Shown one piece after another: positions 46,496 through 58,930 of a stretch of 64,000 nt of DNA. The DNA is taken from assembly GCF_002795825.1 (NCBI RefSeq), contig NZ_CP018800.1, positions 1,426,001 through 1,490,000 of the forward strand, in the 5' to 3' direction. The DNA is from Mariprofundus ferrinatatus (lineage in GTDB: Bacteria; Pseudomonadota; Zetaproteobacteria; Mariprofundales; Mariprofundaceae). Within the stretch, counting starts at the first letter, position 1. Each line of letters starts with the position of its first letter. Both the position numbers and the translations under genes were made by a program. Under the pieces are notes generated by a model, which searched no databases, was not told the origin of the DNA, and saw nothing but the letters and a program-made list of their open reading frames with translations.

Positions 46496-47584
46496 ATGAC
46501 GACACAGGCGCTGCTATCGCAGCTATACGACACCCCTGAAACAGACATTATCGAGCAGATCAGAAGCCTCAAATCCGAACTGGGCGACAAGGTGCTGATC
46601 CTCGGCCACCACTACCAGCGCGAAGAGGTGTTCGCCTTTGCCGATGTGACAGGCGACTCGCTGAAGCTGGCGCAGAAGGCGGCTGAAACCTCCGCCCCCT
46701 ACATCATCTTCTGCGGCGTTCACTTCATGGCCGAAACCGCCGATATCCTCACCGGCGATGATCAGGCGGTGATCCTGCCCGATCTGGCTGCCGGCTGCTC
46801 GATGGCCGACATGGCCGATGATGAGCAGGTGAACCGCTGCTGGCGTGAGCTCTCCGAAGTGATCAATCCGGATGAGTGCGTTACTCCGGTCACCTACATC
46901 AACTCCACCGCCTCATTGAAGGCGTTCTGCGGTGAGCATGGCGGCATCGTCTGCACCTCCGGCAATGCGCGCCGCATCCTTGAGTGGAGCTGGGGCAACC
47001 GCGAAAAGATTCTCTTCTTCCCCGACCAGCATCTGGGCGAGAACACGGCGCTGGCGATGGGTATCCCCGACGCCGAGATGATCATCTGGGATCCGGCGCT
47101 GCCGCTGGGCGGCAACACCCCTGAAGCGATCGAAAAGGCGAAACTGATCCTCTGGAAGGGGTTCTGCTCGGTGCACCAGCTCTTCAAGCCTGAGCATTCC
47201 GACACCATGCGCAAAAACCATCCCGGCATCGAGATCCTCGCCCACCCCGAGTGCTCGCGCGAGGTGTGCGAAACGGCCGATTTTGTCGGCTCCACCGAGA
47301 TGATCATCCGGCATGTCTCCGAAGCCCCGAGCGGCACCAGCTTTGCCATCGCCACCGAGCTGAATCTCGTCAACCGCCTGCGGCTGCAGTTCCCGGACAA
47401 ACCGGTCTGGTTCCTCTCGCCGATGGTCTGCATGTGTTCGACGATGTTCCGCACCGATCCGCAACACCTCTGTGCAGCCCTCACCTCGATCAGGGATGGT
47501 GATATCACGCATCAGATCACAGTGCCTGCACAACAGAAACGCTGGGCCAAACTCTCGCTCGAAAGGATGTTGAACCTTGGTTAA
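46496..47584 (+). CDS. nadA: Quinolinate synthase
   Basis: NadA condenses iminoaspartate with dihydroxyacetone phosphate to form quinolinate for NAD synthesis; it needs one [4Fe-4S] cluster. [20 protein letters not shown] near residue 36, CSMADMA near 102, [18 protein letters not shown] and [12 protein letters not shown] near the end are seen. The ATG at 46496 is the likely start; no clear ribosome site is visible. The stop overlaps the OmpA-like gene by eight bases. Confidence 0.94.
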
Positions 47585-49034
47585 ACGTGCTCTTTATCTC
47601 CTGCTCACCGCCCTGATCGCGCTGCCCGTCGCAGCCCAGGCCGGCACCATTAAATCGCTCGAGCAGGAGATCTTCGCATTCAAAAAGAGTGGCGACCACC
47701 GCTATGCTCCCCTCACCACCTCGCGCGTGGAGGCCTACCTTGGTGCCGCCATGCTTGCAGATGGGGAGCAGAGAGAAGGTGAAGCTGCTGCTGCAGTGAA
47801 GAAGGCGGAAGAGAAGCTTGCTGAGGCGAAATCCACGGCAGCAGGCTTCCGCCAACAGTTCGCATCGCTGCTGGCGCTACGCAGTGAAACCAGTGCCGTT
47901 GCAGAGATTGTCTCCACTACCCCTGAAGAGGGAAAGCCGCTTGCTTCCCAGCAGATGGTCGAAGCCGAGAACGCACTGAACCAGGCCATCGTGACCCGCG
48001 AACGCGGTGAACTGAACAGGACCCTTGAGCATGCTGCCACCGCAAAATCGGCCTACAGCAAGGTGCTGAACAGCAACCTTGATCAGCTATCCGTTATCAC
48101 GGCACGTCTTATCTCCAAGGCCAGGTCATGCGGCTCCAAACGCTATGCGCCGGTCACCCACCAGGCAGCCAGCGAGAAGCTGGCCGAGCTGCGCGGTTAT
48201 ATCGACGGCCTCTTTGCCACTCCGCCATCCAAACCGAGCGAGGCCTACGCGCTTGCAGCCGAAGCGAATGCGGTGTGTGAACAGGTCAAGCTCTGGAAAA
48301 AAGAGAGCAGCAGTTATGAAGAGATCATTATCAGGGAGAGGACGTTCCGTCACAATCTCGCCAAAGAGCTCGACATTGAGACGCCCGATAACGTTCTGCT
48401 GGTCACCAATTCACCCCGGGAGCTTCTTGATGCAACCAAGCGGCTGAAAGGCAGCCTCTCTGCAGAGCGCGAAGCTCGCAAGAAGGCAGAGCGCGAAGCT
48501 GAGGCAAAAGCCAGAATGGTTGTCGAGAGCGATGAGCAGATGCAGGCGCAGCGCAGTCAGCTGACCGACATGAAAGAGGTATTCCGCGCCAAGCTGGAGC
48601 GGGAAACCGCCGATAAAAAAATGCAGGAGCGGTTGCGCAACCAGTTCAAAGAGGGTGATGCGGAGATCTTCGTCAACCTCGACGGTTCGCTGCTGCTGCG
48701 CATGGTCGGACTGCAATTCACATCAGGAAGCAGCAAAGTCACCTCTGAATATTTCGATCTGATTTCCCGCCTCAAAGGCGCCCTTGATGTCTATGCCGAC
48801 AGAACGGTTCGCATCGAGGGGCACACCGACGACCAGGGCGATGTGAAGCCGAACCAGCAACTCTCGCTGAAGCGGGCCGAATCGGTGCGTGATGTCCTGA
48901 TCGAAGCCGGAGCCGATGGAAGCCGCCTGAAAGCGCTTGGTTACGGCGAGGTGCGCCCGATCGCCAGCAATGAGTTCCCGCAGGGTCGGGCCATGAACCG
49001 TCGTATCGATATCGTCATCGACGCTCCCCAGTAA
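47577..49034 (+). CDS. OmpA-family peptidoglycan-binding protein with coiled coil
   Basis: Starts at TTG 47577 with AAAGGA nine bases upstream, overlapping nadA. A signal peptide (1-22, ending AAQAG) is followed by a long helical region rich in Ala, Glu and Lys (about 50-350) and a C-terminal OmpA domain (about 370-485) with FTSGSSKVTSEY, EGHTDDQGDVKPNQQLSLKR and GYGEVRPIASN, which binds peptidoglycan. It should tether the outer envelope to the wall. It is followed by the LOG-family gene, 21 bases on. Confidence 0.85.
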   Translation: MVKRALYLLLTALIALPVAAQAGTIKSLEQEIFAFKKSGDHRYAPLTTSRVEAYLGAAMLADGEQREGEAAAAVKKAEEKLAEAKSTAAGFRQQFASLLALRSETSAVAEIVSTTPEEGKPLASQQMVEAENALNQAIVTRERGELNRTLEHAATAKSAYSKVLNSNLDQLSVITARLISKARSCGSKRYAPVTHQAASEKLAELRGYIDGLFATPPSKPSEAYALAAEANAVCEQVKLWKKESSSYEEIIIRERTFRHNLAKELDIETPDNVLLVTNSPRELLDATKRLKGSLSAEREARKKAEREAEAKARMVVESDEQMQAQRSQLTDMKEVFRAKLERETADKKMQERLRNQFKEGDAEIFVNLDGSLLLRMVGLQFTSGSSKVTSEYFDLISRLKGALDVYADRTVRIEGHTDDQGDVKPNQQLSLKRAESVRDVLIEAGADGSRLKALGYGEVRPIASNEFPQGRAMNRRIDIVIDAPQ

Positions 49035-49055: not shown

Positions 49056-50120
49056 TTGAACTCGGAACTGACTGATCCTTCAGGCCTTGAGGGGCTTCCC
49101 GAAAAGGTCCACGAGCATGCCCGCAAGCTGATTGCCGACTACGCCCACGACTCCCCCTACAAAAGGGCGATCCTTGTCGAGGCGCTACGGCTGGTCTCGG
49201 ACGGATACAGCAATGCCGATGTAAAAATGCTGGCCAAAACCATGGGCGAGCTTCGCAAGGGGCTCGACGTATTCCAGCCCTATCAGGCACTGCGCAAGGT
49301 GAGCGTGTTCGGTTCGGCGCGTACCAAACCGGACCATCCGCGTTATATCCAGACGATGAACTGTGCCGCAGCACTCCGCGATGCCGGTTTCATGATCATC
49401 ACCGGCGGTGGCGGCGGCATGATGCAGGCGGCCAACGAGGGGGCCGGCGAGATGAACTCCTTTGCCATCAATATCAACCTGCCTATGGAGCAGCAGCCCA
49501 ACCCGGTAATGATCGGGTCCCCCCGCCACTTCTACTGCCAGTACTTTTTCACCCGCAAACTCTTCTTTCTGAAGGAGAGCGATGCGGTGGTGCTGACCCC
49601 GGGCGGCTTCGGCACGCTGGATGAGACTTTTGAGACACTGACACTGCTGCAGACCGGTCGCAATCCGCCAATACCGGTCGTGCTTCTGGAGGCACCGGGT
49701 GACGATTTCTGGGGCCCGTTTATGCACTCCTGGATGCGCAGGCTGGTCAAGGATGGGGTGATCGATGCCGATGACAACCACCTGCTCTTCCATACCGACA
49801 GCATTGAGGTGGCGACAGCCCATATTCGCGACTACTACGTCAACTACCACAGTTTCCGTTATGTCGGCAAGGCAGTACTGCTGCGCATCCTCAACCCGTT
49901 ATCAGCAGATGCGCTGGATCGATTGAATGCGGAGTTCTCTGATGTGTTGAGTGAAGGTGAGATCGACCAGGTGTTCCACTGGCCGAAGTCAGACGACCAC
50001 TGCTTCGATCACCTGCCTCGCCTGCGCCTGCACCTGGATCGTTCCCGCATGAACGTGCTGCCGCAGATTATCCGGCGCATGAACTCCCTCTTCGTTCAGG
50101 ACCACAAGCAGGACTCCTGA
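49056..50120 (+). CDS. LOG family protein (Rossmann fold, lysine decarboxylase-like)
   Basis: Predicted nucleotide 5'-monophosphate nucleosidase or cytokinin-activating-like hydrolase. VFGSARTKPDHPRY near residue 89, ITGGGGGMMQAANEG near 110 and PGGFGTLDE near 181 are the LOG fingerprint. At 354 residues it is longer than the usual 200, with N- and C-terminal helical additions as in many proteobacterial homologues. The start is a TTG with only a weak ribosome site. Confidence 0.85.
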   Translation: MNSELTDPSGLEGLPEKVHEHARKLIADYAHDSPYKRAILVEALRLVSDGYSNADVKMLAKTMGELRKGLDVFQPYQALRKVSVFGSARTKPDHPRYIQTMNCAAALRDAGFMIITGGGGGMMQAANEGAGEMNSFAININLPMEQQPNPVMIGSPRHFYCQYFFTRKLFFLKESDAVVLTPGGFGTLDETFETLTLLQTGRNPPIPVVLLEAPGDDFWGPFMHSWMRRLVKDGVIDADDNHLLFHTDSIEVATAHIRDYYVNYHSFRYVGKAVLLRILNPLSADALDRLNAEFSDVLSEGEIDQVFHWPKSDDHCFDHLPRLRLHLDRSRMNVLPQIIRRMNSLFVQDHKQDS

Positions 50121-50232: not shown

Positions 50233-50248
50233 TGGCCGGAAAGTTGCT
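50233..50248 (+). promoter_or_regulatory. Candidate sigma54 -24/-12 promoter
   Basis: TGGCCGGAAAGTTGCT has the GG and GC dinucleotides at the exact spacing of the RpoN consensus TGGCACG-N4-TTGCW, with two mismatches. It lies 54 bases before the hydrolase gene start, leaving a normal leader. A bacterial enhancer-binding protein is not seen nearby. Confidence 0.4.
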
Positions 50249-50302
50249 AAAGATAAAAGGCGCAAATATGATGCAGCCGCTTAATTTCAAAGGAGGCAGG
50301 CC

Positions 50303-51256
50303 ATGAGAACGAAATTGCTGATGATTTTCTGCTCCGGCCTTATGCTTCTTATGCCCGGCATTGCCTTCTCATCGGATACCTCAGCCCCCTCCATTCGCCA
50401 GCAACATGATCCCGCGCTGCAGCAGCGACTGAACAGATGTATCAAGCAGCTCAAGCTCACTTCAGCCGTTCAGCAGAAGCGCCTCTCCGTTGCTCTCGTG
50501 GATGTAACCGATCCGTCAGACCCGAGCATGGCACAAATCAATGGCGATGAAATGATGTATGCAGCAAGCCTTCCGAAGATCGCCATCCTGCTGGCCGCTT
50601 TTGAGCGCATCGCAGAGGGAAAACTCCAGCTCAACGACAACACCCGTGAGACCATGACCAGCATGATCCGCCACTCCTCCAACAGTGCTGCCACGGCCAT
50701 GATCAGAAAAGTTGGCGGCAATTATATCAACACGGTCCTCTCCTCCCCGAAATACAGGCTTTACGACCCTCGCCACAATGGTGGCCTCTGGGTAGGTAAA
50801 GAGTATGCCAAAGGCAGCGCCTTCCATCGCGATCCCCTGCACCAGCTGTCGCACGGAGCAACCGCCATCCAGGTTGCACGCTTCTACTACATGCTTGAGA
50901 CCGGCCGCCTTGTTTCTCCTGAGTATTCTCAGGAAATGAAAGCCATCATGTCGAAACCGGGCATCAACCACAAATTTGTCAAAGGCCTCTCTGCCAGCTA
51001 CCCCGACATTGAGATGTACAGAAAGTCCGGAAGCTGGGGCTCATTCCACGCCGATAGCGCCCTGATCGAACATAACGGTCGCCACTATATTGCCGTCGCT
51101 TTGGCCAACGACCCGAAAGGTGGTGAGTGGATGACCCGCCTGATCCGCGAAATGGATGATATTATTTTCAAACATGCCGGCTTCGCCTCGGCTGATGCCG
51201 CTGCACCGCAGATGGTTTCGGCCTCTGCACACACGACCACGAACGGCTTGATGTAA
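50303..51256 (+). CDS. Secreted serine hydrolase, beta-lactamase/PBP fold (copy A)
   Basis: A 317-residue protein with a Sec signal peptide (1-23, ending GIAFS). The fold of class A beta-lactamases and penicillin-binding proteins is shown by three active-site motifs: SLPK near residue 88 (nucleophile serine and lysine), SSN near 124 and KSG near 240. It may be a carboxypeptidase or a beta-lactamase; class A's Glu166 motif cannot be placed with certainty. A strong AAAGGAGGCAGG site precedes the ATG. It is closely similar to the gene at 52624, from which the transporter gene separates it. Confidence 0.8.
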   Translation: MRTKLLMIFCSGLMLLMPGIAFSSDTSAPSIRQQHDPALQQRLNRCIKQLKLTSAVQQKRLSVALVDVTDPSDPSMAQINGDEMMYAASLPKIAILLAAFERIAEGKLQLNDNTRETMTSMIRHSSNSAATAMIRKVGGNYINTVLSSPKYRLYDPRHNGGLWVGKEYAKGSAFHRDPLHQLSHGATAIQVARFYYMLETGRLVSPEYSQEMKAIMSKPGINHKFVKGLSASYPDIEMYRKSGSWGSFHADSALIEHNGRHYIAVALANDPKGGEWMTRLIREMDDIIFKHAGFASADAAAPQMVSASAHTTTNGLM

Positions 51257-51303
51257 TCTCAACAGCAGAGGGAGCCGCTTGCAGTTTCCTCTATTTTCAG
51301 GAG

Positions 51304-52554
51304 TTACGACTTCTCTCCATGCAACATTCTCCGGGCATGTTCCCTGCCCAGCATCACCAGCGACAGACCCCAAAGCATACAGACCAGCAGAACCAGCCAG
51401 CTCAGATCCTGGCTTGCAATAGAGAGCGGCAGCCACTGCGTCAGCAGCAGGATCAACAGTGAGCCGATGATCCTGAACAAACGGTATCCGAACATATCGA
51501 TCCACGCCTTGGCCTGAAAAATCAGCAACGGATTGACGGATGCATACAGCAGCTCTTTTGAAGCACGATTAATTGAATAGGAGAGTCCGCGGTCGGCAAT
51601 CTTCAGTGCGGCCCCGGCAGCAAGGCCCGGCGCGGAGATATAGAAAAGTGAACTTACCACAACGGCAAGCGGCTGCGCTGCCAGACCAGCCATTACCCCC
51701 AGCCAGCGGTGCACAACAGGGACAATGAGAAGATTCACGGATATCGCAATCAGCCCGAGAAGGCTGAAAAACTCGCCCAGATAGGCCGTGCGCTCTTCCC
51801 TGCCCGATATCGCCGATTCGATGGCTGTCATGAACTGGTATTCGATCAGAGGTTCAATGATCTGGGCCAGAAGTACGATTGCGGCAATCAGTTTCAGGTA
51901 ACGATGCGAAAGTACTGCGCGCCAGCTGCCCTCTTCAACATGTCTGCCGTTCTCTTTTGCATGATCATCGCGGTAGAGGCCTGTTCGATACATCACCATG
52001 GTCAGCAGAATAAGCAGAGAGAGGATGGCTGCTGCTACCAGCAGCAGATCGGTGCTCTGTAGTGATGTCTGCCTGATCAGGATACCGGTAGCCAGACCTC
52101 CGGCAACACCCCCGACCAGTCCTCCGGTTCCGATAAAAGCGTACCAGCGCCTCCCCTCCTCTTCAGAGTAGACCGAATTGGTGATGCTCCAGAACTGCTC
52201 CACCAGGACCACGCTGAGAATGTCGACAAAAATATAGAAGGCGAAAGCAGTTATCCGATCCGGATCAACCAATAAGGGGCGAAAAACGACCAGCAGCGCA
52301 ATAACGATAAGTACGCTTGTAATCACCACATGGAGGCGGGAATAACGCGCCACCAGCCGATAGTAGAAGGAGACAATAGCCCCGAGAGTCAGGGCCGTGG
52401 CGATCCAGACGTAGGGAAGCAGATCACTGCCAATCGCCTCCAGAAAGATCGAACGGCTGACCGGCTTGAGGTGGTAGAGTGCCGTGATAATCAGAAAAAA
52501 ATTACTGAAAAGAAGTGCGCAGCGCAAAAACGGCCGATAGCGAAGCTTTGACAT
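51304..52554 (-). CDS. Npt1/Npt2-like nucleotide transporter (MFS fold)
   Basis: A 416-residue inner-membrane protein with about twelve hydrophobic segments. The start, FFLIITALYHLKPVSRSIFL, and LPYVWIATALTLGAIVSFYY, resemble the KPVR...LPYVY pattern of bacterial proteins related to ATP/ADP translocases; LLYASVNPLLIFQAKAWIDM near residue 330 is also of that family. Substrate cannot be read from sequence: nucleotide exchange is an inference from family. It lies between two hydrolase paralogues, diverging from the second with 69 bases between starts and converging on the first. Confidence 0.65.
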   Translation of the reverse strand: MSKLRYRPFLRCALLFSNFFLIITALYHLKPVSRSIFLEAIGSDLLPYVWIATALTLGAIVSFYYRLVARYSRLHVVITSVLIVIALLVVFRPLLVDPDRITAFAFYIFVDILSVVLVEQFWSITNSVYSEEEGRRWYAFIGTGGLVGGVAGGLATGILIRQTSLQSTDLLLVAAAILSLLILLTMVMYRTGLYRDDHAKENGRHVEEGSWRAVLSHRYLKLIAAIVLLAQIIEPLIEYQFMTAIESAISGREERTAYLGEFFSLLGLIAISVNLLIVPVVHRWLGVMAGLAAQPLAVVVSSLFYISAPGLAAGAALKIADRGLSYSINRASKELLYASVNPLLIFQAKAWIDMFGYRLFRIIGSLLILLLTQWLPLSIASQDLSWLVLLVCMLWGLSLVMLGREHARRMLHGEKS

Positions 52555-52623
52555 ATATAACGATTATGGCGTATAGTTAAGTCACTTGTACAGCTGGAAC
52601 ACCGTTTCAGCGGGAGTGTTCAC

Positions 52624-53664
52624 ATGGCACGCAAGTCTCGTATGGCAGTCAAATTATGGTTCCGATTAATGACCGGCCTGCTCTTCTTTATGCTGGTGCC
52701 ACATAAATCAGTCGCCGTCGACAGCTCCCACCATCAAACCCGCCACCATAAAACCACGACACTCAAGAAGACGCACCCGACTGTTCGCGATCATGCCAGC
52801 CCGAAGATGCAGAGAATGCTGGAGAAGCGCATCGCCTCCCTTCACCTGAGCAGAGCAATTCATGACAAACGGCTGTCCGTAGCGCTCGTGGACGTCACTG
52901 ACCCCTCTGCTCCCGCCATGGCCCAGATCAACGGTGACGAAATGATGTACGCTGCCAGTCTGCCGAAAATCGCTATTTTGCTGGCCGCCTTCGAACGCAT
53001 ATCGGAAGGGAAGCTGCCGCTGGATGATGAGCTGCGTAAAACGATGACCGATATGATCCGGCACTCATCGAATACAGCTGCAACGGAGATGATCAGAAAG
53101 GTTGGCGGCGATTATATCAACAAGGTACTGGCCTCCCCGAAATACAGGCTTTACGACCCGAACCACAACGGCGGCCTCTGGGTCGGCAAGGAGTACGCAG
53201 GCAGCAAGGCATTTCACCGCGATCCGCTGCATCAGCTGTCGCATGGGGCTACTGCACTTCAGACAGCACGCTACTACTACCTTCTGGAAACCGGACAGCT
53301 TGTTTCTCCGAAACACTCCAGGGAGATGAAAACTATTCTCTCAAAACCCGGCATCAGCCATAAATTTGTCAAGGGACTGGAGGATAGCCCCCATGGAAAT
53401 CTGGAGATGTACCGGAAATCGGGAACATGGCGCTCCTATCATGCCGACAGTGCGCTGATCGAACATGATGGCCGCCGTTACATTGCCGTCGCGCTTGCCC
53501 GGGACCCCAAAGGTGGCGAGTGGATGAAAAAACTGATCCGGGAGATGGATGAGATTATTGTTGACCTGCATGAGCAGGATGAAGTTTTTGCAACAGCCGG
53601 TGCACACGAGTCGCTAGCCTCTGCTGCTCATCCGCGGAGTTCTTCCTCAAAACGTTTGATGTAA
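52624..53664 (+). CDS. Secreted serine hydrolase, beta-lactamase/PBP fold (copy B)
   Basis: Paralogue of the gene at 50303, 346 residues, with a signal peptide (about 1-31) and a His/Lys/Thr-rich insert (about 36-58). Motifs SLPK near residue 111, SSN near 148 and KSG near 264 are intact. Blocks around ALVDVTDPS, INGDEMMYAASLPK and YRLYDP are identical or nearly so in copy A. GGGAG precedes the ATG. Its last 110 bases overlap the convergent hydrolase gene on the other strand. Confidence 0.8.
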   Translation: MARKSRMAVKLWFRLMTGLLFFMLVPHKSVAVDSSHHQTRHHKTTTLKKTHPTVRDHASPKMQRMLEKRIASLHLSRAIHDKRLSVALVDVTDPSAPAMAQINGDEMMYAASLPKIAILLAAFERISEGKLPLDDELRKTMTDMIRHSSNTAATEMIRKVGGDYINKVLASPKYRLYDPNHNGGLWVGKEYAGSKAFHRDPLHQLSHGATALQTARYYYLLETGQLVSPKHSREMKTILSKPGISHKFVKGLEDSPHGNLEMYRKSGTWRSYHADSALIEHDGRRYIAVALARDPKGGEWMKKLIREMDEIIVDLHEQDEVFATAGAHESLASAAHPRSSSSKRLM

Positions 53665-54826
53665 GGGTCACGATATAATTGAGCTTTGGTGCTCCTGCCG
53701 GTGCCTCAATAACTGCCACAGAATTCATCAGATTCAGTTTATTGCCTTTGTATGCACCGCACTGATATCCCTCTTCCGGCTTACATTTATAGAATGATCC
53801 GGATTTGAAATAGAGTGCTGCATCATTCAGAGCCGGCGAATGGGCATAACGGATTCGATACTGCGTCATATAGAGCAGGCGTTTGATCTGCAGGCTGGAC
53901 CACGCATCGACAAGCCGCCCCTGCTCCATAAGAAGCAGGTAGTTCATCAACTCCCGCGTTGTACAGACACTGGTTTTTCCTGCCACACGGCGTTTGCCGG
54001 TAGATGAGAAAAAACTTCCCTGCCGCAACAGGTCGGTATCCATGCCGTTTCGAAGTATTGGCCCCAGCAGTGCCTGCAACAGGTGATCCCCCAACTGCCG
54101 CCTTGAATGTTGCCCGAAATAGGCATCTTCTTCCGCCCTGCTTACAGGATAGGCTTTGCCAAAATGGCGAAGCAACAACAGCTGTTTCTGTACCATGGCC
54201 GTGGCGGCATTGGAGCTGGCAGAAACGCTCCAGTCAAGATAGGTCCAGAGGTTGCCACGATCGCCTTCTGCCAGCCGCCGCTTCAGCAGGCGCATTTCAC
54301 CCGGCAGCCAGAATGGCACCTTGTGATGATCGCGCCCGATAAATTCATCTGCGACAATCTCCGTGTCGCGAAGAATGCGCTTGCGGGCATTTATATCGTC
54401 GGGGTAAATGTCGGCGAGAGCCTGAAACAGAGCTAGCAGCACCATCATCTTTCCGACACTGGCAGGATTATGAATCACACTGGCCTGATGCTCCGCATAT
54501 CTGGGTTGTTCACTATCCGTGATATCAAGAAGCGAGATACTGTAATACGGGGCATCCTCTCCCAGCAATTTCACCACCTCATTTGTGAGCCACGGATCTG
54601 CAGCAGGCAATCCCCGCTCCAGTTTCCCCTGCAGCCTTAATTGCACCTGCTCGGTCTTCAACTGCGCCCCGCTGTGAAGCCGGTTACCCGGAACCCGTCC
54701 CTGCTGGGCAAGGCGATAGCCCTCCAGACGGTATATACCTGTCTCTTCCGCACCATCCAGAGGGAAAGCGTGCAGAAGAGAGGGAACCATCATTGACAGC
54801 ATAAGCAGCAGCGGCCTAATCATCAT
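53555..54826 (-). CDS. Third secreted serine hydrolase, divergent
   Basis: A 423-residue protein with a signal peptide (1-20, ending LLHA). The serine-lysine pair lies in PASVGK (Ser123, Lys126), the second motif in SASSN (Ser204-Asn206) and the third in FKSGSFY near 345. It is longer than copies A and B and only distantly similar to them. The start overlaps the stop of the dikinase-like gene by four bases, so both are translated from one mRNA. The C-terminal 36 codons lie over the opposite strand of copy B. Role in wall or glycan remodelling is inferred. Confidence 0.75.
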   Translation of the reverse strand: MMIRPLLLMLSMMVPSLLHAFPLDGAEETGIYRLEGYRLAQQGRVPGNRLHSGAQLKTEQVQLRLQGKLERGLPAADPWLTNEVVKLLGEDAPYYSISLLDITDSEQPRYAEHQASVIHNPASVGKMMVLLALFQALADIYPDDINARKRILRDTEIVADEFIGRDHHKVPFWLPGEMRLLKRRLAEGDRGNLWTYLDWSVSASSNAATAMVQKQLLLLRHFGKAYPVSRAEEDAYFGQHSRRQLGDHLLQALLGPILRNGMDTDLLRQGSFFSSTGKRRVAGKTSVCTTRELMNYLLLMEQGRLVDAWSSLQIKRLLYMTQYRIRYAHSPALNDAALYFKSGSFYKCKPEEGYQCGAYKGNKLNLMNSVAVIEAPAGAPKLNYIVTLTSNVLRKNSADEQQRLATRVHRLLQKLHPAHAGQQ

Positions 54827-57756
54827 AACAACTCCGAAACCAGCGGCGGCCGATTCATCTGAACCAAACGCGCACCCCTTCGAGATATATCTCGGTCCAT
54901 ATCGATCAAAGTCTGGCTGCTTCTGGCCCTGCTGCTCTCAACAAATGGACGAATCTGGAACAGCGCCAGCTTGCCTTGCCGGAACCCGAATTCGATATCT
55001 GCCACCACCGGCACACCCTGCGCATTTCTGGGCAGGGGAAACCGCCGTTCTACATCGGCAATCAGGCTCAGCAACTGTTCGATCTCCGCACTACTGAGCA
55101 GGCTCTGCTTTCCTGAGGCAGGCATCACCTGAAGCCCTCCTTCCGGGTTAAGCACCTTCTGTACAGGAGAGGATGCCTGAGCAATAAGTTCAACGCCGCC
55201 ACTGATTCGCTCCACCCTGATCTCCTCGGCTGCCTGCCCCTCAACGGCACCACCTATGCCTTCATTGACGGCGACTGAGAGCAAGCTGCGATCTCCGCTT
55301 TCGATGGCGGCGGAAACCAGAACTCCCGACTTCTCCGAGGGGAAACTTTTCATCAGCAGCACAGCCGGGTAAACATGCTCCGGCTCCTCCATATATGACT
55401 GCCTCCATGCATGGGAACGATCACTAAATGGTGAGGCCCATACATGCAGGATCGCTTTGAGAATCGCATCAAAACCGACCACATTGGCAACTGTGAGATT
55501 AAGGCCTGCGCCGCTAAAGCCGGGCAGATCCTCGACATTGGTGTCACTGCGGACAAACACACCGTAACTGCCATCATCTCCGAACGTTTCATTAAGCATA
55601 TTTCGCAGGCTGTTCTTAAGCGAATTGTCCGGGCTACTGTTCACAATCCATTTTCTCAAACGATCGAGAAACAGTTGCGTTTCACGGCTTTTCTGATCGC
55701 CATCCGTAACAAGAGCAAGACGGTCATATTCGGATTTAATCCAGGTTAGCACGGAAGGGCCACCATCAAACAGAGGCTGCTCCAGATGCTGTTTGAAAAA
55801 CCCGAACGGAATGACAATGCCCGGATTGACCATCTGCGGGTAGAAGTGATGCAGCTCCCCGAGATTGGCAGCTTTAGGGCCGACTGTTCGTCCCGAATCA
55901 CGACTGCGAATGGAGCCAAGTGATTTAAGCGCCGTGTCATTCAGATCCAGCTTATCCATATCAGCATTGATACTGACCATCTCAGAAGGAGACTCTGTAC
56001 CGAACACCGCCTCCCACTTCGGACTATCCTGCTCTATAGAAACCACGCCCTGATGGCTGATGGCTACAACAATACGCTCACCCACATGGCCCTTGATCCT
56101 TCTGTACAGCCTTTCATCAACAACCAGATTGGGGATGCCCATGTTGCGTGCAAGTAACTGCACATGAGACATGGAACTGCCCTCACCGCGGGTAATGATG
56201 CCTGCAACCGGCGTCAGCTCCTGACGCGTTGACTGGAGAATATAGATGCCATCACTGCGCAAATCTCCGCCCTGCTCAGGATCCAGCAGCAAGACTCCCC
56301 GCTGCAGCCCCGGATTAAGCCCTCGCACACCTGTCGCAACTTCACGGCCAAAAACCGTGTGTCTTATTCCGCTTAGCTGCCCGGCATCGGCTATCAGGGT
56401 GTCGAGTACGCGGGTAAATGGCAACAGAGGCGAGCTGCGAACCCGATCAGGAACATAGTTCTGTACCAGCTCACTCAAATCCCCCCATCGTTCTACTGTG
56501 GTTGCAAAATGGTACTCCATTGCACGCTGTGACCACTGGGTCATGCGCGCCACATAACGAAGCCCTCTGTAATATTCAGCTGCGGTAAGTGAATCGTTTG
56601 CAATCAACCTGTCCAGTTGATCCCGAACCGCCCGCCACTGGCGATCAGAGATAAGGCCTGTTGCATGCACTGCAGCGGCCAGATGGCGCAGCCATGACAG
56701 CCTGTCAGAACGGCTCGCCCGCCCCGGCGTTTCAAGTAGCTGATTGCCCCGGGCATAGATCTCCTGCTCCAGAACCAGCGATGCTCTCAAGAACCTCAAT
56801 CTGTTGTGTACCGTATACCTGTTCTGCTTCTGCAGCATGGAGCGAAACCTCTGAGATCTGGAGGCGGCCACGGCAATGGTCTCTGCAGCCCCTCTTGCAG
56901 AGCCAAGAGCCTCTACAGTATCAAGCATCTCCTGCTTGAAACGCCTGTTCCAAGACTCTTCGGCCAGCTGATTGAGCTGACTGATCGCAGTATGAGGGGC
57001 ATAAAGGGCATCCATATCAGCGGCCAGCGACTCATAGGCCCCCTGCAGGTTTCCAAGGCCCGACTTGAGCGCATAGGTACGAACCCTTTGCGGGTCTGCG
57101 GCATCAGGCATACTGTGGATTTTGATGCGAAGGCCATAAAAGCCTTCATCCTCCTCAGAAATTTCTGTAGCTGCCTGACGAATTTTCGCTCCCAGCTGCG
57201 GCTCCACGGCAAGAGGAAGCAGCCGTACCGTCTCACGCAATAAAAGGTACCGTTCTGGCGACGTCCAGGCAGGGTCATCCAGCAGTGTTGTCACGATTTT
57301 GTTCGCTGCCACCTGCTCATCCTCAACCTGGATGGCGCCACGATAATAACGGGCCCTGCGAAATACCCAGCCATCATCCGCCCTGATCAGATAACGCTCG
57401 AGAAGAACCTGCTTGAACTCATCCAGTTTGGGAGCAAGACCAATATAATCTTCGGGGTTAAGCCCTGCGACCAGATTGGCAATAAGATAACCGTTGGCAC
57501 GCATCGCATAGGCCTGATCGCTCCAGTCTCCGTGCTGACGCCCCCCTCCGTGTAAACGGCATGCATTCTCTTTTGGTGGCAAGACTGACCCGTCTTTACA
57601 GAACCACTGTACGCCATGAAAGGGGCCCCGAATATTCTTTTTAAACTGCTCAATCAGCTGACGATACTGGTGCGCCTGTGGATCAGCGGATGCCCGGGAA
57701 GGTTGCGGGGAGAAGCATAAAACAGCGAGTAATATAAGTGATATCCGCAGAGTCAT
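54823..57756 (-). CDS. Secreted dikinase: phosphohistidine and PEP/pyruvate-type ATP-grasp domains
   Basis: A 977-residue protein starting at the ATG at 57756. The first 24 residues form a Sec signal peptide ([11 protein letters not shown] core, ASA cleavage site), so it should be periplasmic. Residues 25-450 are helical with no recognised domain. A PEP-utilising mobile domain with [11 protein letters not shown] (likely phosphohistidine near 531) is followed by an ATP-binding domain (about 615-965) with [30 protein letters not shown] and FQIRPF. This order matches plant glucan, water dikinase, not PEP synthase. No PEP-binding TIM barrel is present. Substrate unknown; see findings. Confidence 0.78.
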
Positions 57757-57946
57757 GTCATCCAGTATAGACAATAGAACAGACTCTAACCAGCCGGGAA
57801 AAGCTGATTGTAGCGTGTATATTTTCCCCTGGTTTCATAGCGCCTTGAGCCCTCACCCTCCATCAGAAGCTCACTCGGCATCGTTAGAGTGGTATTCAAG
57901 AGGCGCAGTGGCAGGATACGCCGCATATTACTTTTGGGAGAAACAG

Positions 57947-58930
57947 ATGGGATACGATGTTTTCGGCGTAGGCAACGCCATTATGGATATGCAGGTGCGT
58001 TGCGATGATGCATTTCTTGAGGAGATGGGCATTGAGAAGGGGGTCATGACACTGGTTGATGAGGGGCGGCAGCAAGAGATCCTGGCTGCACTGGCCAATC
58101 ACAGCGTGAACTACTGCTCTGGTGGTTCTGCGGCCAACACCATTGTCGGCATTGCCGATATGGGGGGGAAATCGGCCTATGCGTGCAAAACGGGTGCAGA
58201 CAGTTTCGGCAGGCAGTATCTCGATGAGATGAAAAACCTCGGCATCACCATCGAAGTTCCACAGACCGAGGGACAAAACGGTACCTGCGTGGTACTGATC
58301 ACACCGGATGCTCAACGTACCATGCTTACCCATCTCGGTATCTCCTCATCCCTTGATGAAGATGACATCGTCGAGAGCGAGGTCGCCAAGGCAAAATATC
58401 TCTACGTTGAGGGTTATCTCTTTGCCGGAGATTCCACCAAGGCAGCCGCACTCAAAGCGATCGAATTCGCCAAGAAGCATGGCGTAAAGGTGGCACTGAC
58501 TGTTTCCGATCCATTCCTGATCCATCTCTTCAAGGAGCAGTTCCAGCAGTTGATCGAAGGCCCTGTCGATCTTCTCTTCTGCAACGAGGAGGAGGCCAAG
58601 GCATTGACCGGCCTGGAGGACCCTATCGACTGCGCCCATGCCATCCATGCTCACTGCGAAAACGTTGCGCTTACACTCGGCAAAAACGGTTCGATCATCA
58701 TGCATGAGGGTAAGGCATACCCAGTTGAAGGAGTTGAGGTTGAAGCCATCGACACCACCGGTGCCGGTGACATGTATGCCGCAGGCCTGCTCTACGGTAT
58801 CACCAATGGCATCCCCTGGCAGAAAGCAGGCCACCTCGGATCGCATGCAGCAGGTGTCGTGGTCTCCCAGCTTGGCGCACGCCTGCCTGCACCGCTTACT
58901 TTCGAAGAGATCAAACATCTTCTAGATTAA
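57947..58930 (+). CDS. Adenosine kinase, PfkB family
   Basis: Predicted to phosphorylate adenosine (or a related nucleoside) to AMP; 327 residues. PfkB signatures are [19 protein letters not shown] near residue 50 and [12 protein letters not shown] near 269, whose aspartate is the catalytic base. The start at 57947 has GGGAG eight bases upstream; a longer open frame upstream lacks one. It diverges from the dikinase-like gene across 190 bases, and an AMP- or adenosine-salvage enzyme there would suit a dikinase that releases AMP. Confidence 0.87.

Follow-up and report, generated by a model that had tools for sequence, protein, structure and literature searches.

A conserved gene module of an exported dikinase-like protein and a PBP-A-fold serine enzyme in Mariprofundus points to undescribed envelope chemistry

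To our knowledge, the dikinases of the superfamily that includes PEP synthase work in the cytoplasm or the plastid, where ATP is plentiful. The locus examined here, from the iron-oxidising bacterium Mariprofundus ferrinatatus, encodes a dikinase-like protein (DIK) with a signal peptide among genes for secreted serine enzymes and a nucleotide-carrier-like protein, raising the question of whether these proteins belong together and which reaction an exported dikinase could catalyze. The window, that is, the whole stretch of 64,000 nucleotides that was analysed, has a GC content of about 54% and comes from a genome of one contig (2,301,665 bases). A first-pass annotation had read these genes as a possible envelope system, and all the genes that it named were found in place by open reading frames and Pfam.

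A secreted gene module in Mariprofundus and other proteobacteria

SH1 (50303–51256, + strand) encodes a secreted Beta-lactamase2 family protein and paralogue of SH2, as assigned from the open reading frame list, Pfam and the nearest solved relative. Between it and SH2 (52624–53664, +), which encodes a secreted, PBP-A-like protein of the same family, lies NPT (51304–52554, −), the gene of an NTT/ATP-ADP-carrier-like membrane protein that we regard as an accessory member. SH2 is convergent with SH3 (53555–54826, −), which encodes a secreted serine enzyme with the class A beta-lactamase/PBP-A fold; their 3′ ends overlap by 110 nt (53555–53664), an overlap of about 104 nt in several relatives and absent in some. 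DIK (54823–57774, −) encodes 983 aa from a TTG codon, or 977 aa if translation begins at the likely start, ATG at 57756, and the four-base overlap of its stop with the start of SH3 is real, being read directly as ATGA at 54823–54826 (−). Genes for an OmpA-domain protein (47577–49034) and a LOG-family (lysine-decarboxylase-like) protein (49056–50120) lie upstream of SH1; OmpA-domain genes flank DIK also in loci L082 and L083, but not in the Mariprofundus loci other than this one. Just past the window end there is a separate PEP-synthase-like ATP-grasp gene (G000:C1:1490107-1490439).

A search of 61 genomes retrieved DIK from 19 of the 23 Mariprofundus genomes and from none of the 13 other genera of the family, where the weaker matches were ordinary PEP synthases aligned over the ATP-grasp part only. 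When 398 genomes from the phylum were searched with an SH3 profile, the same 19 Mariprofundus genomes were obtained together with three further genomes; neither DIK nor SH3 was detected in G012, G013, G021 and G022, two of which (G013 and G021) are incomplete genomes. The gene order SH1/SH2 (+), SH3 (−), DIK (−) was observed in every Mariprofundus locus as far as the contigs reach, and the DIK stop overlapped the SH3 start by 1–8 nt in 18 of the 19 sequences, the exception being one in which the chosen SH3 start lies 11 nt downstream. Clustering of the neighbours showed that only SH1/2, SH3 and DIK are common to all loci and that the flanking genes vary, with a fatty-acid synthesis cluster beside the module in about seven genomes. 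Within the genus, DIK and SH3 distances correlated (r = 0.84, Mantel p = 2e-4, shared ancestry not removed), which is a sign of joint inheritance and not proof of interaction. All Mariprofundus loci examined, and four from outside the genus, have SH3 next to DIK, confirming that the adjacency is more than chance and that the neighbours are conserved, as the earlier reading had expected.

The divergent PfkB-family gene on the other side of DIK (57947–58930, +) behaved differently. Its best solved match is named adenosine kinase (3ubo, 1.8e-63), making that label plausible on sequence grounds. This gene was to have supplied a nucleoside recovery step; it is a neighbour of DIK only in the M. ferrinatatus genome, and was therefore rejected as a member and left outside the conserved module.

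Beyond Mariprofundus, DIK was identified in six other proteobacteria (L004, G179, G116, G095, G559 and G242). SH3 adjoins DIK in four of the five catalytically intact outside loci: a Thiotrichales MAG (L004) carries an NTT-like gene, a methyltransferase gene, and DIK and SH3 overlapping by 4 nt, and the orders are SH1-NTT-SH3-DIK-OmpA in G179, OmpA-SH3-DIK-SH1-NTT in G116 and SH3-DIK in G095. The last three belong to one class, in which the DIK/SH3 pair occurs in 3 of 48 genomes, from three different families. The stop/start overlap extends from Mariprofundus to the Thiotrichales MAG and another class, and peptidoglycan-binding OmpA-domain genes lie beside DIK in two outside loci. A Na/Pi cotransporter gene (L083:16722-18566, +) adjoins the NTT-like gene of the G116 cluster. 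The fifth intact locus, G559 from a further class, has an L,D-transpeptidase-like partner in place of SH3: the DIK end is overlapped by the gene of a secreted protein (L130:11690-13342, +), followed by a tandem copy (L130:13454-15124, +). Both copies share an SHGC motif, and Pfam YkuD matches below the cut-off (E = 0.15 and 0.99) are the sole enzymatic hint.

An even draw of the phylum contained DIK in 4 of 375 genomes, indicating that it is rare and sporadic outside Mariprofundus, and class- and order-level searches gave the same sporadic occurrence. No further DIK loci were found among relatives of G116 and G179, and a single-protein scan of genome contigs returned two DIK loci only. Plasmids yielded no DIK, only ordinary PEP synthases covering about one third of the query, and a pattern scan of IMG/VR yielded no virus-borne copy.

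The dikinase-like protein and its serine enzyme partners

DIK has an N-terminal all-helical domain (56377–57681, −; residues about 26–460), followed by a phosphohistidine swivel core (56122–56217, −) and a C-terminal PPDK_N-type ATP-grasp domain (54913–55887, −), an order given by Pfam and the predicted structure, with the last domain also placed by alignment and structure match. The ATP-grasp domain matched PPDK_N (PF01326) over residues 630–954 with an E-value of 7.5e-29. Residues 520–551 matched the PEP-utilizers swivel (PF00391) with 20.3 bits, slightly short of the cut-off (23.1), and the histidine (His531, codon 56164–56166) is conserved in the motif S[15 protein letters not shown]. The N-terminal domain carries the conserved motif GPF..(I/V).W.C.DG...C..HGGG.QHG. 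Neither Pfam nor the PDB entries in the top 50 Foldseek results gave a match to it, and none of the known kinds of acceptor-binding domain was recognisable in DIK. The predicted structure has a mean pLDDT of 80, with the swivel loop around His531 poorly modelled. The best 50 Foldseek matches were confident for the ATP-grasp domain only, for which the best was the isolated ATP domain of rifampin phosphotransferase (5hv6, target TM 0.85).

A signal peptide of the classical type, [22 protein letters not shown], starts from the ATG at 57756. All 23 DIKs checked have one, with a 12-residue mean hydropathy of 1.8–3.4, so that, far from being lost in most homologues, this feature of the earlier annotation is kept throughout. 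The PEP-synthase control reading frames showed values of 0.5–1.6 in eight of nine cases and no signal peptide; the ninth was a 64-aa wrong frame.

We then compared the catalytic residues in an alignment of 18 divergent DIKs, comprising 17 with a partner enzyme and the solo G242 protein. All 17 partnered proteins, down to 31% identity, have His531, Lys628, Arg736, Glu922, Gln934 and Arg936. In rifampin phosphotransferase, the Lys and Arg that we assign as equivalent are essential, the swivel His carries the phosphate, and the Glu is not essential (PMC4844700). The G242 DIK has no PPDK_N match at all and is without the His, the Lys, the first Arg, the Glu and the last Arg, yet its signal peptide and N-terminal motif are retained. 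None of the module partners occurs in the roughly 8 kb to each side of it, so in this one case lost catalysis coincides with absent partners. The G242 gene (L142:9057-11969, +) lies in a complete genome and represents a natural pseudo-enzyme.

The partner enzymes were clear in Pfam for SH1 and SH2 (Beta-lactamase2, 1.6e-23 and 1.1e-22), and SH3 stayed under the cut-off (17.9 of 22 bits). The predicted structure of SH3 (pLDDT 72) resembles class A beta-lactamases and PBP-A, with 4ewf as the best Foldseek match and 2j7v as the PBP-A match, and the SxxK, SxN and KxG motifs are kept in 21 of 21 SH3 sequences. PBP-A (tll2115), a DD-carboxypeptidase/endopeptidase (PMC11189452), is the sole solved relative of SH1 by sequence. 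SH1–3 share the fold and the SxxK/SxN/KxG motifs of PBP-A and class A beta-lactamases; in SH3, unlike these, SxxK and SxN are separated by about 80 residues and KSG is followed by a Cys-containing stretch, and the identity is only about 13%. On the basis of this shared fold, SH1–3 are predicted to be serine acyl-enzymes that act on peptides. The description of three secreted hydrolases with SxxK/SxN/KSG motifs stands, though the fold is not that of glycan hydrolases. A short C-terminal [HRG][LI]M tail, often preceded by a Ser-rich stretch, occurs in many SH1/SH2 proteins; it is not universal, and is found in the window at 51241–51253 and 53640–53661 and in relatives too.

The NTT-like carrier

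NPT belongs to the TLC ATP/ADP transporter family (PF03219; 45.9 bits against a cut-off of 21), with matches to solved ADP,ATP carriers, although against TIGR00769 it scored 40 of 387 bits, far under the cut-off. The charged residues of plant NTT1 are Lys155, Glu245, Glu385 and Lys527. In a weak alignment with NTT1, both Glu residues and the SKE/KAxID Lys of NPT align, and the first Lys is replaced by Arg.

The gene is found at the DIK locus in about 5–6 of the 19 Mariprofundus genomes. SH1 and SH2 flank it in G000, G011, G004, G018 and, with the locus split over contigs, in G017, and the ortholog beside SH1 in G016 is interrupted by a TAG codon (L135:1525-2784), being either a pseudogene or an assembly error. 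Orthologs occur away from the DIK locus in G002, G003, G005 and G009; those of G009 and G003 adjoin a putative XTP/dITP diphosphatase (RdgB/HAM1) gene (L131:1588-3589 and L134:6627-8653). Nine of the 19 DIK carriers have no NPT ortholog, usually with a distant paralogue present, and the ortholog is missing altogether from the high-quality DIK-bearing genomes G001, G010, G015 and G020. NPT was therefore rejected as an obligatory module member in Mariprofundus.

Outside the genus, an NTT-like gene lies no more than about five genes away from DIK in three of the five intact loci, and any NTT-like gene occurs in 5 of 38 genomes. By our own estimate, which assumes one copy per ~3,000 genes, the chance of such a gene lying within five genes of DIK is about 0.3% per locus, so three of five is unlikely to be accidental, even with two related loci counted as one. 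The NPT of the window, the G116/G179 pair and the Thiotrichales sequence formed separate clades in a tree with long branches, which suggests repeated recruitment or very old divergence. The recurrence of NTT-like genes near DIK is the strongest support, circumstantial in kind, for a nucleotide-carrier role of NPT. The carrier of the first-pass annotation is thus partly supported, by the outside loci, but not as a fixed partner within Mariprofundus. Free-living bacteria are known to have uncharacterised NTTs, among them one zetaproteobacterial sequence, and experiments cover only a small part of the family (PMC5381601). NPT is like these transporters in its family match and, as far as the weak alignment shows, in most of the NTT charged residues, and unlike them it adjoins a secreted dikinase.

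Candidate functions and comparison with known dikinases

Given their adjacency and signal peptides, the dikinase-type protein and the serine acyl-enzymes belong together as a conserved secreted module, as had been supposed. We tentatively favour, as a possible explanation, that DIK, SH3 and SH1/SH2 constitute one peptidoglycan-directed envelope module with an extracytoplasmic dikinase-type phosphotransfer. DIK would be exported to the periplasm, where its ATP-grasp domain would phosphorylate the swivelling His, as in the PEP synthase/RPH/GWD superfamily. The His may then transfer its phosphate to an acceptor that the N-terminal helical domain binds, with release of AMP and Pi; this acceptor would most likely be peptidoglycan or something attached to it. 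At the same site, the PBP-A-type SH3 and SH1/SH2 would trim stem peptides or transpeptidate them, and the NTT-type carrier, where present, would deliver nucleotide to the periplasm. Peptidoglycan is suggested as the substrate by the PBP-A-like partners and, in G559, by the L,D-transpeptidase-like one, a link that derives from predicted folds and motifs of the partners, with the L,D-transpeptidase match below the Pfam cut-off (E = 0.15).

ATP is scarce in the periplasm, and nine of the 19 DIK carriers have no NPT ortholog, so ATP supply is the main weakness of this mechanism. The same scarcity and the dispensability of NPT favour the main rival, in which DIK is an exported module member that uses no ATP in the envelope and either takes another phosphoryl donor or serves as a scaffold or regulator of SH3 that responds to phosphate or nucleotide. 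The G242 protein, with its N-terminal domain and export signal kept after the loss of catalytic residues, indicates that the fold can be retained without catalysis. However, a mere scaffold would not need the six catalytic residues that all partnered copies keep, and we consider this rival doubtful. A more specific form of the phosphotransfer module would be an ATP-driven envelope reaction in which the NTT exports ATP, DIK phosphorylates, or ligates in an ATP-dependent manner to, peptidoglycan or a wall-linked polymer, and the coupled PBP-A-type enzyme processes the product; this too we regard as unlikely at present, and if true it would represent a new class of energised envelope chemistry.

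The full cycle first proposed for the locus, with ATP exported by NPT, an envelope glycan phosphorylated by DIK, the SH enzymes acting on the same polymer and the nucleoside recovered by adenosine kinase, gains from the adjacency of all parts in M. ferrinatatus and from the recurrence of NTT-like genes near DIK. We consider it quite improbable, given that the kinase adjoins DIK in that genome alone, several DIK carriers lack NPT in the whole genome, and the SH enzymes have the PBP-A fold and not that of a glycan hydrolase. An antibiotic-inactivation island, combining a rifampin-phosphotransferase-like kinase with class A beta-lactamases, would agree with the nearest structural match of the ATP-grasp domain and with the fold of the SH proteins, but DIK has neither the RPH order nor a rifampin-binding domain, and its NCBIfam RPH score, confined to the ATP-grasp part, is 79.9 against a cut-off of 999 bits; for class A beta-lactamase the score is 19.9 against 200 bits. 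Moreover, export takes DIK away from ATP, SH1 has its nearest solved relative in PBP-A, a DD-peptidase, and the partner in G559 is L,D-transpeptidase-like. This reading is therefore disfavoured and improbable. Finally, PEP synthase homologues are common, and one is encoded just past the window, so DIK might be a PEP-synthase relative of the cytoplasm whose N-terminus was misread, among unrelated ordinary neighbours; the overlap and synteny conserved across several lineages, the signal peptide in every homologue and the absence of a PEP/pyruvate barrel make this hardly credible.

The phosphotransfer module that we tentatively favour was not described in the open-access papers that we searched, a limited check, and nothing relevant to secreted or GWD-like bacterial dikinases, extracytoplasmic kinases or links between dikinases and peptidoglycan was found in them. 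We take the DIK–SH3 module to point to undescribed envelope chemistry. It would add a peptidoglycan-associated phosphotransfer step, none having been described in those papers, and the conserved exported dikinase with its NTT-like genes allows a test of whether bacteria send ATP into the periplasm and use it there. The DIK loci also make testable the role of many uncharacterised NTT-like carriers in free-living bacteria.

Among known dikinases, RPH, PEP synthase and PPDK share with DIK the ATP-grasp fold, the swivel His and the Lys/Arg/Glu/Gln/Arg set. By analogy, the conversion of ATP to AMP and Pi, as described for RPH (PMC4844700), would be expected for DIK too. However, the order in DIK (helical, His, ATP-grasp) is reversed relative to PEP synthase and PPDK, with the ATP-grasp domain C-terminal, and Pfam gave no match to the PEP/pyruvate barrel (PEP-utilizers_C) at E<=1. 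RPH differs in its order of ATP, RIF and His domains and in its rifampin-binding domain. Unlike all three, DIK has a signal peptide and is coupled to a PBP-A-fold enzyme.

GWD has a substrate part, a His domain and a C-terminal nucleotide domain, without a pyruvate barrel. DIK resembles GWD/PWD in its His domain followed by a C-terminal nucleotide-binding domain and in the absence of the barrel, a likeness at the level of domain order. GWD/PWD also depend on an essential His (PMC12892837). No starch-binding module (CBM45/CBM20) or other CBM was found in DIK by Pfam at E<=1, and in contrast to GWD/PWD, DIK is bacterial and exported, with cell-wall enzymes as partners. The small-molecule dikinases HpeHI/PpsAB likewise combine an ATP-grasp and a swivel domain, and 9goj was among the structure matches of DIK; they apply this chemistry to a non-pyruvate acceptor (PMC12167813), but unlike DIK they are cytoplasmic, split into two proteins and directed at phenolic substrates.
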